Positions 6,299 to 27,964 of a stretch of 31,604 nt of DNA are shown piece after piece (positions within the stretch are counted from its first letter, which is position 1; each line of letters begins with the position of its first letter). The stretch spans positions 1 through 31,604 of the IMG/VR virus record IMGVR_UViG_3300036770_002247; one strand, 5' to 3'. This stretch comes from a virus. The notes under the pieces were generated by a model, which was given only the letters and a program-made list of their open reading frames with translations, was not told where the DNA came from and searched no databases. The translations under genes and the position numbers were made by a program.

Positions 6299-6430
6299 CT
6301 TTGTTGCGCGAAAACAACAATGCAAATATTTTTTGGCTCCCTTCAGAGCAATTCGTTTGCGGGTAATTCGGACCCCGATAAAAAACTAGCGACAGATTCT
6401 ATTCATGGTCTTTCATTACAGGAGCGAGCA

Positions 6431-7609
6431 TTGAAGGTTGATCTCATCCCGATCGAGAAAGTAATCCCCTATGCAAAAAATCCGAGGCGAAACGAGGCGG
6501 CAATTGCAAAAGTTGCAGGCAGCATTAAGGAGTTTGGTTTTCGTCAGCCTATTGTTGTCGACTCCGAAATGGTGGTTATCGCTGGCCACACAAGACTGGA
6601 GGCTGCGCGATCGCTTGGCATTGCGAATGTGCCAGTTCATATTGCCGAAGGTCTGAGCAAGTCACAAATCAAGGCTTATCGCATCGCAGACAATCGAGTT
6701 GCTCAAGAGGCTGAATGGGATTTAGACCTTTTGAAAATCGAGCTGTCGGAATTGCGCGACGAGGAGTTTGATTTAAGCGAGACTGGATTTGATGAAGATG
6801 AGCTGAATGATTTGCTTGCTGAAGCTGTTGCAGAAGGCTTAACCGACGAGGATGCTGTTCCTGAGCCTCCACCGGAGCCTATTACAAAGCTCGGAGACAT
6901 CTGGATACTAGGCAAGCACCGATTGATGTGCGGCGATAGTACGAGCGTGGATGCGGTTGAGAGACTAATGGCTGGCGAACGACCCAGAATGGTTTTCACC
7001 GACCCACCGTATGGCATCGCACACAGCGGAAAGGGAATTACAGCAAACGGTGTGGGCAACGACTTCGGGCAAATACTGGGCGACGAAGATGTTAGCGTCG
7101 CTATTGACACATTCCGCCTCTGCGTTGGTCAGTGGCCAGAGGCGCGAATGGTATTTTGGGGCGCAAACTACTACCCTAGCGCCTTGCCTGACGGCCACGG
7201 CTGGCTGGTGTGGGACAAGCAGCGCGAGGGCGACACATTTTCTGGCGCTGAGTTGGCGTTCATTAATGGTGGCGTGCGAGTTGATGTTTTTCGGCACATG
7301 TGGCATGGCATGGTCAAAGCAAGTGAGCATGGCCAAAAGCGCATACATCCCACCCAAAAGCCGATTGCGTTGGCTGAATGGTGCTTTGCTAAATACGGCG
7401 ACTCAAGCACTGTTCTTGATTTGTTTGGCGGCAGCGGCAGCACTTTGATTGCCTGCGAAAAAACAGGTCGGTCTTGTCGAATGATGGAACTAGACCCAAA
7501 ATACTGCGATGTCATCGTCAAACGATGGGAAGAATTCACCGGCAAGAAAGCGAGATTAGAAAATGGCAGTGGCGACCTACGGACTGGAGACGATCTGCAA
7601 GCTGCTTGA
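6431..7609 (+). CDS. ParB-like nuclease domain fused to a DNA methyltransferase (beta class)
   Basis: I prefer TTG 6431, preceded by AGGAG at 6-nt spacing, because it places the ParB fold at the usual N-terminus; an in-frame ATG at 6320 would add 37 residues of unlikely sequence. Residues about 5-100 form a ParB/sulfiredoxin-like domain (PYAKNPRRNE, GSIKEFGFRQPIVVD, VIAGHTRLEAA). Residues about 155-385 are an amino-methyltransferase with DPPY at 191-194 and the AdoMet site FGGSGS at 332-337. DPPY before FGGSG defines the beta class, acting on adenine N6 or cytosine N4. It may protect phage DNA from restriction. The 130-bp leader before it holds no clear promoter. Confidence 0.85.
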   Translation: MKVDLIPIEKVIPYAKNPRRNEAAIAKVAGSIKEFGFRQPIVVDSEMVVIAGHTRLEAARSLGIANVPVHIAEGLSKSQIKAYRIADNRVAQEAEWDLDLLKIELSELRDEEFDLSETGFDEDELNDLLAEAVAEGLTDEDAVPEPPPEPITKLGDIWILGKHRLMCGDSTSVDAVERLMAGERPRMVFTDPPYGIAHSGKGITANGVGNDFGQILGDEDVSVAIDTFRLCVGQWPEARMVFWGANYYPSALPDGHGWLVWDKQREGDTFSGAELAFINGGVRVDVFRHMWHGMVKASEHGQKRIHPTQKPIALAEWCFAKYGDSSTVLDLFGGSGSTLIACEKTGRSCRMMELDPKYCDVIVKRWEEFTGKKARLENGSGDLRTGDDLQAA

Positions 7610-24183: not shown

Positions 24184-24912
24184 ATGACACAAGCAGTACA
24201 ACTCAGAAAAGGCACGACCTCCGAACATTCGACCTTTACGGGTTTGCAGGCAGAGGCAACTGTCGACACGACTAAGAAAACCATCGTAGTCCATGATGGG
24301 TCGACTGCTGGCGGCATTCCTTTATCCAGAGAGGATCTGAGCAATGCGAATCCTAGCAATCTGACTACGATTGTTGGGGCTGATACGGCATCTGGCGATC
24401 TCTTTGTTGTTTATGACGTTTCAGCGAGCGCGTTTAAGAAGATCACCAGGGCTGAGCTGAACAATGCAATGGAGCAAGATGCACTAGCTTCTGTTGCGAT
24501 CACTGGCGGCAGCATCAACGGCACGACGATTGGCGCAAGCACTGCAAGCACAGGAGCTTTCACCACCTTATCTGCCTCAAGCACAGTTAGCGGTAATGGA
24601 TTCAGCACTTATCTAGCCAGCCCACCAACTATTGGCGGCACTAGTCCAGGACTTATAACTGGGACAACAATAACAGCGACAAATCAATTTTCTGGGCCAC
24701 ATAATGGATCTGTTGGCGCAACCTCGCCGTCGAGCGGAATATTTACCTCATTGGCATCTTTAAGTGTTTTACAAAATGTCCAAACAATTGCATCATCATC
24801 ATCCATTTCAGCTGGCAACAATGGGCTTTCAGTTGGGCCTGTGACTATTTCTGGTGGGGCTGTTTTTACAGTTCCAAGTGCAAGTATTTGGAAAATTTTA
24901 GAAGGAGTTTGA
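24184..24912 (+). CDS. Fibre protein with Mtd-type N-terminal (beta-prism) domain
   Basis: The first ~52 residues match, from memory, the N-terminal domain of BPP-1 Mtd: AVQLRKGTTSEHSTFTG, then KKTIVVHDGSTAGGIPLSR. In Mtd this domain forms a trimeric beta-prism. After it the protein departs from Mtd and continues with fibre repeats (ITGGSINGTTIGASTASTGA) and a Ser/Gly/Thr-rich C-terminus ending VFTVPSASIWKILEG. The remaining Mtd domains are in the next gene, 1 nt downstream, so the two likely form one tip. A Shine-Dalgarno (AAGGA) precedes the ATG. Confidence 0.8.
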   Translation: MTQAVQLRKGTTSEHSTFTGLQAEATVDTTKKTIVVHDGSTAGGIPLSREDLSNANPSNLTTIVGADTASGDLFVVYDVSASAFKKITRAELNNAMEQDALASVAITGGSINGTTIGASTASTGAFTTLSASSTVSGNGFSTYLASPPTIGGTSPGLITGTTITATNQFSGPHNGSVGATSPSSGIFTSLASLSVLQNVQTIASSSSISAGNNGLSVGPVTISGGAVFTVPSASIWKILEGV

Positions 24913-24913
24913 C

Positions 24914-25924
24914 ATGGCCTATGGCAAAGTGCTCGCAAATGCGACATCTGCAACCGGCGTATTTCGCAAAGCTGATCCCACAATCGTCGCATGGACCAAA
25001 ACTGGCGCATTTACAGCTACAACAGCGACTGAATTAACGATTGAGGTAAATGGTGAATCGCAAATCATTGCGTCTGGAACCTCGATCACGATGCCAGGTT
25101 CGGCCACGACAGGAACAGATTATGCAATCTGGGCAAAAACTGATGGCACATTGCAAGCAACAACCGATCACACATCTGCTCCGGCGACTGGTGCTAGAAA
25201 AGTCGGTGGGTTTCATTACGCGCCAGGCGGCAACGCAACAGGGACATCTGGCGGTAATACCACAGCAGGAATTAACGAATATTCTTTTTGGGACTTGAAA
25301 TTCAGGCCAGCTTGTAAAGATCCTCGCGGCATGACGCTAGTGGCTGGATGTTTTTGGTCTGATATCTATCTTTGCGGGGTCGATCACTATACAAACGGGA
25401 CGAGCAAATATAACGTCACGATCGCAGACGGTTCATCGCTGCCTAAGATTAGTGCAGCTTTTGGGGGCACAGGATCTAACTCTTATGCTGGCGGCACTTG
25501 GTTTGCTTTCAATGAAATTATGCGCGGAGCTGGTAAGCGACTGCCAAGATATACAGAGTTTGCTGCTTTAGCCTATGGCACGACCGAGGCTTCTTCGCTC
25601 GGATCTGATCCGACTACAACAGGGGTCAGCAGCGGCACGTACACAAGCAAATGGGGCGTGATGCAATCCAGTGGAGTTATGTGGCAGTGGTCAGATGACT
25701 TTATTGCAAGTGGCGATGGGACTGGCGGCTGGCAAACTGGACTTACAGAAACCAGAGGCAATATTTATACTTACAATTCCTCGGCACGCGCTGGGCTCTT
25801 GGGCGGCGGCTGGGCCGACGGGTCGGGTTCCGGTTCTCGTTGCTCGAACTGGACCTACGATCCATCGCTCTCGGCCAGCCCCATCGGGGCTCGCGGCGTG
25901 TGTGACCACCTGATTCTTGATTAA
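24914..25924 (+). CDS. mtd: Major tropism determinant (Mtd-like), DGR target with C-type lectin domain
   Basis: The 336-aa product matches Mtd from its second domain onward: an Ig-like part (TGTDYAIW, ARKVGGFHYAPGGNA) and then a C-type-lectin fold (EYSFWDLKFRPA, DPRGMTLVAGCFW, GTSKYNVTIADG, GKRLPRYTEFAALAYGTTEA) ending in the invariant GARGVCDHLIL. The last 130 bp carry the variable repeat. The eleven codons that differ from the template are residues 295, 299, 301, 302, 305, 314, 315, 319, 321, 322 and 323; in Mtd the equivalent positions form the receptor-binding surface. Mtd's N-terminal domain is encoded by the preceding gene. Confidence 0.93.
   Translation: MAYGKVLANATSATGVFRKADPTIVAWTKTGAFTATTATELTIEVNGESQIIASGTSITMPGSATTGTDYAIWAKTDGTLQATTDHTSAPATGARKVGGFHYAPGGNATGTSGGNTTAGINEYSFWDLKFRPACKDPRGMTLVAGCFWSDIYLCGVDHYTNGTSKYNVTIADGSSLPKISAAFGGTGSNSYAGGTWFAFNEIMRGAGKRLPRYTEFAALAYGTTEASSLGSDPTTTGVSSGTYTSKWGVMQSSGVMWQWSDDFIASGDGTGGWQTGLTETRGNIYTYNSSARAGLLGGGWADGSGSGSRCSNWTYDPSLSASPIGARGVCDHLILD
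25789..25906 (+). repeat. DGR variable repeat (VR)
   Basis: 118 bp at the 3' end of the Mtd-like gene align without a gap to 26323-26440 (constant offset 534). They differ at 16 positions: 25796, 25808, 25809, 25814, 25815, 25817, 25827, 25854, 25856, 25868, 25869, 25874, 25875, 25878, 25880 and 25881. Every one faces an adenine in the template; none of the 92 other template bases differs. The last 25 bp (25882-25906, G/C-rich) are identical and should contain the initiation-of-mutagenic-homing site. 16 of 26 template adenines are changed, so retrohoming has been active. Confidence 0.97.
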
Positions 25925-25941
25925 GTGGCGAAAGCCACGTT
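25923..25941 (+). other. GAAA-tetraloop DNA hairpin after the VR
   Basis: GTGGC (25925-25929), GAAA loop (25930-25933), GCCAC (25934-25938); two further A-T pairs form if G25939 is bulged. It sits on the stop codon of the Mtd-like gene, just after the VR. In BPP-1 a hairpin or cruciform with a GRNA tetraloop in this position is needed for efficient target recognition, and GAAA fits GRNA. No T-tract follows, so it is not a terminator. Confidence 0.8.
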
Positions 25942-25944
25942 GTC

Positions 25945-26319
25945 ATGGAACCAATCTCAGAGGCGACACAATGTTACGATCAGATGGCTATTATCGAAAA
26001 GTACGAAAGGGTCATAGCCTATCTATATCCAATTGCTCAATCGATGCCTCGTCGACATGGGATAGCCAGAGACAAGTTTTTGAATTGTCTTTTTTCGGTT
26101 CCAGATCTTTTATATCAAGCGGGGAAATCAAATCAGATAAGCAAGATATATGCTGCAGATGCTGGATTGGCTCATCTGCGGTTTTGGATGCGATTTCTTT
26201 TTACGATCAAAAGCATGACGCAACATCAGCTGCAAACGGCTCAGGCTGTTTTGGCAGAAGTTGGGGCGATGCTTGGAGGTTGGATCAAAAGAAGAAGAGC
26301 GCAGGGGCATACTGGGTAA
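25945..26319 (+). CDS. avd: DGR accessory variability protein Avd
   Basis: The 124-aa product is close, from memory, to BPP-1 Avd along its whole length: a start of the MEPISEATQCYDQM type, then YERVIAYLYPIAQSMPRRHG, AGKSNQISKIYAADAG, LRFWMRFL and TAQAVLAEVGAMLGGWI. Avd is a four-helix-bundle pentamer with a basic outer surface that binds the reverse transcriptase and the template RNA and is needed for mutagenic cDNA synthesis. The start at 25945 is set by this match, as the ribosome site is weak. It lies between VR and TR as in BPP-1, and its stop is 3 nt before the TR. Confidence 0.93.
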   Translation: MEPISEATQCYDQMAIIEKYERVIAYLYPIAQSMPRRHGIARDKFLNCLFSVPDLLYQAGKSNQISKIYAADAGLAHLRFWMRFLFTIKSMTQHQLQTAQAVLAEVGAMLGGWIKRRRAQGHTG

Positions 26320-26322
26320 AAA

Positions 26323-26440
26323 CGCTGGGATCTTGGGCGGCAACTGGAACAACGGGTCGGATTCCGGTTCTCGTTGCTCGAACTGGAACAACGATCCATC
26401 GAACTCGAACAACAACATCGGGGCTCGCGGCGTGTGTGAC
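26323..26440 (+). repeat. DGR template repeat (TR)
   Basis: The 118-bp non-coding master copy of the VR. In the Mtd frame it would read ten AAC codons, at exactly the sites that vary (nine of ten are altered in the VR, plus ATC and GAT). AAC at variable sites is the hallmark of DGR templates, because adenine mutagenesis of AAC can reach many amino acids but never a stop. Beyond 26440 the match ends: the next base is G here and C in the VR, so template and target are told apart by their 3' flanks. Confidence 0.97.
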
Positions 26441-26585
26441 GACATCGATTTATCGCTTCGTAAAGGCTTACGCATTACGAGCAGGCCTGTCAAAATGTGG
26501 TCAGCCAGCAGTGTCCTCCTTCGGGGAATACATCAAGAGGTCTGGCATAACGTCAAGTAGGCAATCCAAAGACGGGGCTAGCACA
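26441..26585 (+). ncRNA. Putative spacer part of the DGR template RNA
   Basis: 145 nt between TR and reverse transcriptase with no convincing gene. In BPP-1 the template RNA continues through a spacer of about this size, which the RT-Avd complex binds and from which cDNA is self-primed. Some short inverted segments are present (for example CGTAAAGGCTTACG near 26459-26472), but I cannot fold it. The RT frame happens to be open through the spacer and TR, but those residues have no family match. Confidence 0.55.
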
Positions 26586-27578
26586 ATGCCAAAACGACAC
26601 AGGCATTTGATTGAAAAAATTGCGGACATCCAGAATTTGAGATCTGCATATATCAATACGGCACGATCCAAACGAATGACTCATGGATATTTAGAGTTTA
26701 AGGAATACGCCGAATCAAATTTATCATTGATTCAATCAGAGCTTTTGGATGGTGGCTATAAGATTGGTCCTTATAGAGAGTTTATTATTTATGAGCCTAA
26801 GGCGCGATTGATTTCTGCTCTTGATTTCAAAGACAGGTTGGTGCAACACGCACTTTGTAATGTTATTGGACCGATCTTCGAAAAAGCAATGCTTCCGCAA
26901 ACCTTTGCATGTCGTGTTGGACTTGGCACACATGCAGGAGTCAAATATTTGCAAGCGGAAATGCGTCGAATTGATGCAACGCACTTTTTGAAAACTGATT
27001 TCTCAAAATATTTCCCATCCATAGATCATAAAATCTTGCATGAGATGATTGATCGTAAAATTGACTGCGAAAAGACCCTGAAGATTCTAAGAGAGATTAT
27101 TCCAATCAATGGAAAGGGCATCCCGATTGGAAGTTTAACTTCGCAGCTTTTTGCAAATGTTTATGGCGGTTCTGTTGATCGTTATATTCACTTTGAATTA
27201 AAACATCGAGCATGGGCAAGATACATGGATGATATTGTGATTCTTGGGCATGACGAAAAAGAGCTGAGAAGTTCGTTTTCTAAGATACAAATCTTTTCAA
27301 AAGAAAAGTTACTATTAGCAATAAGCAAGTGGCAATCTGGGCCTATCAGCAGAGGCATCAACTTTCTTGGGTATCGTATCTGGCCCACGCACAAGCTCTT
27401 GAGGAAAGATTCTGTAATAAGAGCAAAACAAAAGATTTCAAAGTTTGTTCGTCTTGGCGATCAAGACTCATTAAGAAAATTCATTGCTTCATGGTCTGGT
27501 CATGCTCGTTGGGCAGACACGCACAACCTTTTTAATTGGATGGAGAATCGACATGGCATCGTTTGTCATCAACAGTAG
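26586..27578 (+). CDS. brt: DGR reverse transcriptase
   Basis: 330 aa from ATG 26586, chosen because MPKRHRHLIEKI corresponds to the BPP-1 RT start. RT blocks in order: YEPKARLISALDFKDRLVQH (68-87), FLKTDFSKYFPSID with D138, GIPIGSLTSQLFANVYGG (178-195), RYMDDIVIL with the catalytic YMDD at 213-216, then FLGYRIWPTHKLLRK. The SQ at 186-187 replaces the usual SP of other RTs and marks the DGR clade, linked to low fidelity at adenines. The gene is visibly A/T-richer than the tail genes (about 37-40% G+C in two lines counted by hand, against 48% in one tail line), consistent with cassette transfer. Confidence 0.96.
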   Translation: MPKRHRHLIEKIADIQNLRSAYINTARSKRMTHGYLEFKEYAESNLSLIQSELLDGGYKIGPYREFIIYEPKARLISALDFKDRLVQHALCNVIGPIFEKAMLPQTFACRVGLGTHAGVKYLQAEMRRIDATHFLKTDFSKYFPSIDHKILHEMIDRKIDCEKTLKILREIIPINGKGIPIGSLTSQLFANVYGGSVDRYIHFELKHRAWARYMDDIVILGHDEKELRSSFSKIQIFSKEKLLLAISKWQSGPISRGINFLGYRIWPTHKLLRKDSVIRAKQKISKFVRLGDQDSLRKFIASWSGHARWADTHNLFNWMENRHGIVCHQQ

Positions 27579-27792
27579 GGCTGATCTTGATGCAATTGCA
27601 GGGACGGTAGAACATCAACGATTTATGCAGGCTTTGCGCGGGTCAATGATTCGCAAGATCAATGTTCAGACGTATCCTGATGGATACAACCAGCCTGGCT
27701 ATAGTGGACCGACATTGGAACCAGTTTGGCAAGATCAGGAAGATCTATCTACGATCGAGCAATTTGGTTTTACCAAAGAAGATTTTGAGTGA
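27553..27792 (+). CDS. Small phage protein after the RT (79 aa)
   Basis: ATG 27553 has GGAGA upstream and overlaps the RT end by 26 nt. The product is acidic: VINSRADLDAIAGTVEHQRF, then MQALRGSMIRKINVQTYPDG, and a C-terminal EDLSTIEQFGFTKEDFE. I recall similar short proteins after fibre genes in many phages, without a known function. Its first part could hold a helix, its second part a Pro/Tyr-rich loop. Probably not part of the DGR machinery. Confidence 0.7.
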   Translation: MASFVINSRADLDAIAGTVEHQRFMQALRGSMIRKINVQTYPDGYNQPGYSGPTLEPVWQDQEDLSTIEQFGFTKEDFE

Positions 27793-27799
27793 GGATGAA

Positions 27800-27964
27800 A
27801 TGTCACGCGATGAGGCTTTAGCAGCAATCGAAAAGCACGAGGCTTTATGTGCCTTGCAATATGCTCAGATAAACGCTCGACTAAAACGCTTGGAGCAGAT
27901 TCTGCTTGGTGCTGGCGGTGCAATTATCCTGCTGCTGGTCAACCTGGTGCTAAAGCTGCATTGA
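27800..27964 (+). CDS. Small membrane protein, XhlA-like architecture (lysis region)
   Basis: 54 aa from ATG 27800, preceded by GAGG. An N-terminal charged helix or coiled coil (RDEALAAIEKHEALCALQYA, then QINARLKRLEQIL) is followed by one membrane segment (GAGGAIILLLVNLVL) at the C-terminus. This layout is that of XhlA-type lysis accessory proteins. It heads the lysis cluster with a second single-span protein and a holin-like gene. Confidence 0.6.
   Translation: MSRDEALAAIEKHEALCALQYAQINARLKRLEQILLGAGGAIILLLVNLVLKLH

Follow-up and report, generated by a model that had tools for sequence, protein, structure and literature searches.

Gene content and layout of the locus

The 31.6-kb virus record (the window) encodes a GpA terminase, a lambda-family portal, a lambda-type tape measure and a J-like tip protein, and also an endolysin, an SSB, a DnaB-like helicase and a YqaJ recombinase; judged by these genes, the uncultivated window phage is a lambda-like siphophage and not a podophage. 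The locus under study comprises the following features:

24184-24912, plus strand: 242-aa tail protein with N-terminal Mtd_N domain (Pfam Mtd_N, E=2.4e-14, residues 5-41; phrog_9648 tail protein)
24914-25924, plus strand: target gene, 336-aa Mtd homologue without Mtd_N (PDB, Pfam and phrog matches)
25789-25906, plus strand: variable repeat (VR), aligned to the TR gap-free over 118/118 positions, with 16 mismatches, each at a TR adenine; the alleles of two related contigs, L003 and L004, differ
25885-25898, plus strand: GC-rich element, equivalent of the BPP-1 (GC)14 element (13/14 bases G/C; VR and TR identical; compared with AY029185)
25899-25919, plus strand: IMH, 21 bp (20/21 bases as in the BPP-1 IMH; the TR counterpart, 26433-26453, differs)
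25925-25938, plus strand: hairpin GTGGC-GAAA-GCCAC, directly after the target stop codon, with a 5-bp stem
25945-26319, plus strand: avd, accessory variability determinant, 124 aa (Pfam bAvd, E=2.8e-28; NCBIfam DivGenRetAVD above cut-off; PDB 4dwl Bbp7, E=2.9e-50)
26323-26440, plus strand: template repeat (TR), 118 bp, with 26 adenines and 10 AAC codons in the frame of the target
26455-26582, plus strand: spacer part of the DGR RNA, Rfam RF03022 Phage_DGR (89.7 bits, E=1.9e-14; gathering score 50)
26586-27578, plus strand: reverse transcriptase (RT) of a diversity-generating retroelement (DGR), Brt homologue, 330 aa (IGSLTSQ at 27126, YMDD at 27222; RVT_1 above cut-off)

The order is therefore Mtd_N tail protein, target with VR, GC-rich element and IMH, then hairpin, avd, TR, DGR RNA and RT; the open reading frames of target, avd and RT are intact and free of internal stops. 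The target matched the PDB Mtd chains 1yu0-1yu4 (E down to 2e-99, residues 12-336), Pfam mtd_2nd (E=1.5e-17) and phrog_11262 (E=3.7e-110), shared 53% identity with the Mtd of the Bordetella phage, and aligned gap-free to solved Mtd across the VR region; these matches and the mapped variable positions identify it as an Mtd homologue that carries the VR in its C-terminal lectin-like domain. A first-pass annotation of this DNA had described the target as Mtd-like, which is correct as to homology; the target corresponds to the C-terminal ~336 residues of Mtd and not to full-length Mtd. In the window, Mtd_N is not fused to the target and resides on the preceding open reading frame, the stop codon of which sits 1 nt ahead of the target ATG; the same placement on the gene immediately before the target recurs in the other contigs of the window's group. 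Among the relatives compared, fusion of Mtd_N to the target is seen in BPP-1 and in five further loci, all distinct; the remaining relatives mostly show no recognisable Mtd_N near the target, and many have a different or shorter N terminus. The product of 24184-24912 is probably a neighbour or a putative anchor of the diversified protein.

The RT was most similar to the solved Brt (PDB 8ub7_A, the closest solved structure; E=4.5e-147 over 328 residues), with 64.3% identity to the Brt of BPP-1; its IGSLTSQ motif, together with the intact YMDD, places it in the DGR clade of reverse transcriptases, for which the motif (I/V/L)GxxxSQ has been defined (PMC3521204). Each part of the full DGR that had been named in the first-pass annotation, including avd and an SQ-motif RT, was thus detected by profile, structure-sequence and motif matches. 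The span originally given, 25789-26440, places the VR and TR correctly and is too narrow for the element as a whole, which extends from the start of the target gene at ~24914 to the RT stop codon at 27578.

The repeat pair and its accessory elements

Realignment reproduced the repeat pair as first described: VR (25789-25906) and TR (26323-26440) are both 118 bp long and align without gaps at an offset of 534. All 16 mismatches fall on TR adenines, so that 16 of the 26 adenines and 0 of the 92 other bases are changed (hypergeometric P = 2.3e-13 for all 16 on adenines); the changes are A>C (7), A>G (7) and A>T (2). Differences at non-adenine positions, named beforehand in the first-pass annotation as evidence that would speak against its reading, are absent from the realigned pair (0/92). 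Eleven codons differ between VR and TR, nine of them AAC in the template, again as annotated, and none of the template codons can be converted to a stop by A>N substitution. The repeat as found mechanically is 121 nt long (25789-25909). An A-tolerant extension of the VR by 3 nt upstream (25786-25788) was rejected, since those bases are invariant in the window and in contigs L003, L004 and L005, which are public virus contigs from IMG metagenomes other than that of the window. A search of both strands of the window found no second VR or other TR-like site; the next best candidate had mismatches at 50 of the 92 non-adenine positions.

DGRs of the BPP-1 type have a 14-bp element of G/C only at the 3′ end of the VR (PMC3240598); in the window counterpart, a single T interrupts the G/C run. 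The IMH at the VR (TGTGTGACCACCTGATTCTTG) differs from its TR counterpart (TGTGTGACGACATCGATTTAT), which provides the directional cue. The hairpin shares its position and GAAA loop with BPP-1 and most related loci, and its stem consists of 5 perfect base pairs, not strongly better than shuffled sequences (z=-1.6). In a survey of 85 related target sites (BPP-1 included; loop length fixed at four), most carried this hairpin with GRNA as the loop and with more base pairs in the stem, commonly 6. Phage DGR hairpins downstream of the VR have been described with GC-rich stems of 7-10 bp and GRNA loops, and the activity of BPP-1 falls when the stem is shortened (Guo et al. 2011; PMC3240598); by analogy, the short 5-bp stem in the window may entail a low homing efficiency.

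Natural alleles of the variable repeat

The first-pass annotation had called the element active-looking and proposed that related genomes be compared at the two repeats; the public contigs L004 and L003 indeed carry different VRs. The region 24914-27914 of the window is identical in L004 except for the VR and 3 further sites, whereas the flanking sequence diverges by ~2% upstream and ~20% downstream. The VRs of the two differ at 20 of 118 positions, as opposed to 3 of 2,547 bp in the remaining cassette (Fisher P=2.6e-25), and 19 of the 20 differences are at template adenines. The TR of L004 has a single change, to T at the adenine of TR position 59, and the L004 VR likewise has T there, as expected if the VR is copied from the TR. 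Between the window and L003, 17 of 118 VR positions differ, 16 of them at template adenines, with 1 difference in 1,210 positions of the flanks. Relative to the TR, the sister VRs contain one non-adenine change each, G38A in L003 and C97G in L004, which were counted against the pattern. Since near-identical cassettes carry three natural VR alleles (window, L004 and L003) that differ almost only at template-adenine positions, the sequence comparison indicates that the VR has been diversified recently in nature, and the description as active-looking is borne out to that extent. The divergence of the VR in otherwise identical cassettes of different metagenomes amounts to a clean natural test of DGR activity (17% vs. 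0.1%), obtained without cultivation.

Other contigs could not serve as independent alleles or lineages. L002 and L082 are identical to the window over 11 kb and probably represent the same strain; L005 is 99.955% identical to L004 over 15.7 kb and has the same VR start, and the contig ends in the VR. Contig ends are clustered in the VR among the relatives: RT loci have 8 of their 40 left ends inside the VR, and target loci 6 of their 42 right ends, although only ~1 each would be expected within ~118 bp; only one left end falls within the TR. This clustering is compatible with the sampled populations containing a mixture of VR alleles; as a caveat, the count was made post hoc, and a repeat by itself can also break assemblies.

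It could be argued that the DGR was once active and is now frozen in the lineage of the window, with the adenine-biased VR as a relic of homing that has ceased. The short hairpin stem would agree with such a history, as would the close relative L003, which is without nearly all of the TR and most of the RT, so that loss seems to occur, and the VR shared by the window and L002 across 11 kb of identical sequence. The identity with L002 is uninformative, however, as L002 is probably from the same strain or study as the window; moreover, TR, avd and RT are intact in the window cassette, and the window and L004, 99.9% identical in the remaining cassette, differ almost only in the VR, which implies homing after the last common cassette. 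A frozen element is accordingly very improbable.

The adenine pattern extends to the wider family. In 83 distinct VR/TR pairs of the relatives, 1,149 of 2,185 template adenines are mismatched, compared with 58 of 7,571 other bases; 43 of the 83 pairs have no non-adenine mismatch. This pooled count leaves out the automatic pairs in L006/L007, L048-L051, L060 and L068, which were rejected as DGR pairs for their many non-adenine mismatches; those of L048-L051 are tandem gene copies. The commonest replacements of AAC codons across the 83 pairs are Ser, Asp, Tyr, Gly and Ala, and the three commonest outcomes of the BPP-1 RT on AAC in E. coli are Tyr, Ser and Asp (PMC12875486); this likeness is only a consistency check, as the natural counts include natural selection.

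The family comparison also bears on a possible assembly artefact in which repeats were collapsed or joined into a chimera. The window is a metagenome-derived virus contig, and the contigs of relatives often break inside the VR; nevertheless, the same arrangement recurs in BPP-1, in L004, which comes from a different metagenome, and in 83 loci with a spacing of 522-562 nt (789 nt in one of them), and this recurrence refutes the explanation and leaves it a negligible probability. A duplicated 3′ end of the tail gene that has decayed through ordinary mutation and positive selection would be compatible with a gene-end repeat adjoining its gene, and can likewise be dismissed in view of the A-specificity (0/92 non-adenine bases against 16/26 adenines changed), the conservation of offset and A-specificity in 83 loci (1149 vs. 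58 mismatches), and the presence of Avd, RT and DGR RNA. One locus in the family, L038:5826, has a VR/TR offset of 789, which exceeds that of every other relative by ~250 nt.

Relation to known elements and probable movement of the cassette

The window almost certainly carries a complete DGR of the BPP-1 type. It adds a well-supported new member to a known system, in which the host-binding protein of a phage is altered at its tip by error-prone reverse transcription, and is no new kind of system: this type of DGR is familiar, and metagenomes have yielded a catalogue of more than 30,000 DGRs, with broad activity (PMC8144416). The understanding of how DGRs work is unchanged by it. The BPP-1 element (mtd-avd-TR-brt; AY029185) agrees in gene order, in the VR at the 3′ end of mtd, in the spacer RNA and the AAC-rich TR, in 20 of 21 IMH bases and the GAAA hairpin after the stop codon, and in protein sequence (RT 64%, target 53% identical). 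In Mtd numbering, template codons with A at position 1 or 2 are 340, 344, 346, 347, 350, 357, 359, 360, 361, 364, 366, 367, 368, 369 and 376 in the window, and 344, 346, 347, 348, 350, 357, 359, 360, 364, 366, 368 and 369 in BPP-1, plus 377 and 378 in the IMH counterpart; variable positions common to both are 344, 346, 347, 350, 357, 359, 360, 364, 366, 368 and 369. Unlike BPP-1, the window TR has no ACG at 348 and has an extra AAC at 367 and ATC at 340; its hairpin stem is shorter, and its TR-side IMH counterpart diverges more from the IMH of the VR. Mtd_N forms the N terminus of Mtd in BPP-1 and belongs to a separate preceding gene in the window, and the window backbone is lambda-like whereas BPP-1 is a podophage. 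The classic tropism-switching cassette of the Bordetella phage is thereby extended to lambda-like phages, and the locus offers a close natural homologue (64% RT identity, almost the same IMH) for testing which BPP-1 parts can be interchanged.

By analogy with BPP-1, the TR-spacer RNA (~26323-26582) would be copied into cDNA by an RT-Avd complex, with random bases incorporated opposite template adenines; the IMH and the GAAA hairpin beside the stop codon would then direct this cDNA to the 3′-terminal part of the Mtd-like gene, where it takes the place of the VR, so that the TR would stay unchanged while the ligand-binding surface of the protein is rewritten. A role of the window DGR in receptor binding and host switching may be presumed on the same grounds as these biochemical steps.

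Four contigs (L004, L003, L002 and L005) carry the cassette with 99.9% identity outside the VR and with the same split between Mtd_N and target as the window. In L003, the cassette lies on a backbone that is only ~75% identical, and the junction is found in the first ~60 nt of the target. A near-identical cassette on diverged flanks (L004) and on a ~75% identical backbone (L003) looks like a ~3-kb cassette exchanged between phages as a module, for which the kappa prophage of V. cholerae HE-09 provides a precedent: there, recombination within the target gene is reported to have transferred 2.9 kb comprising RT, avd (atd), TR, VR and part of mtd from one phage to another (PMC3521204). The window block (~24914-27900) has the same extent; it differs from HE-09 in that its neighbours are uncultivated lambda-like phages, that the junction is within ~60 nt of the start of the target gene, and that there is no fusion to another tail gene. 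At L003:6416-6417, a segment equal to window positions 26330-27428 is missing, that is, nearly all of the TR and most of the RT, while target and avd are kept; a natural DGR loss that left a frozen VR and an assembly join are both possible.

A two-protein fibre tip would be compatible with these arrangements, a reading that we consider rather doubtful. The separate anchor (24184-24912) would contain the virion-binding Mtd_N, and the diversified protein would consist of the sandwich and lectin-like domains only; phages with different tail genes could then exchange the ~3-kb target-avd-TR-RT cassette without creating a fusion, and some recipients, such as L003, might retain a frozen VR after losing TR and RT.

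Mtd-like genes also occur in other settings among the relatives. L048:2553-6070 (also L049, L050 and L051) contains two or three Mtd-like genes in tandem, with no RT found in the stretch examined. L006, L007, L023, L043, L047, L054, L056, L057 and L069 have Mtd-like genes with no RT within the flanks examined; the DGR has possibly been lost there, or these genes are possibly served from elsewhere.

Three further observations concern the window outside the cassette. An int-alpA RNA (Rfam RF02996, 42.2 bits) was detected at 1094-1160, near the left end of the record. The 429-aa protein encoded at 6320-7609 is ParB-like in its N-terminal part and DNA adenine-methyltransferase-like in its C-terminal part. 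Finally, a single 835-aa open reading frame at 11877-14384 matches head maturation protease families as well as major head protein families, and represents a fused protease-capsid gene.
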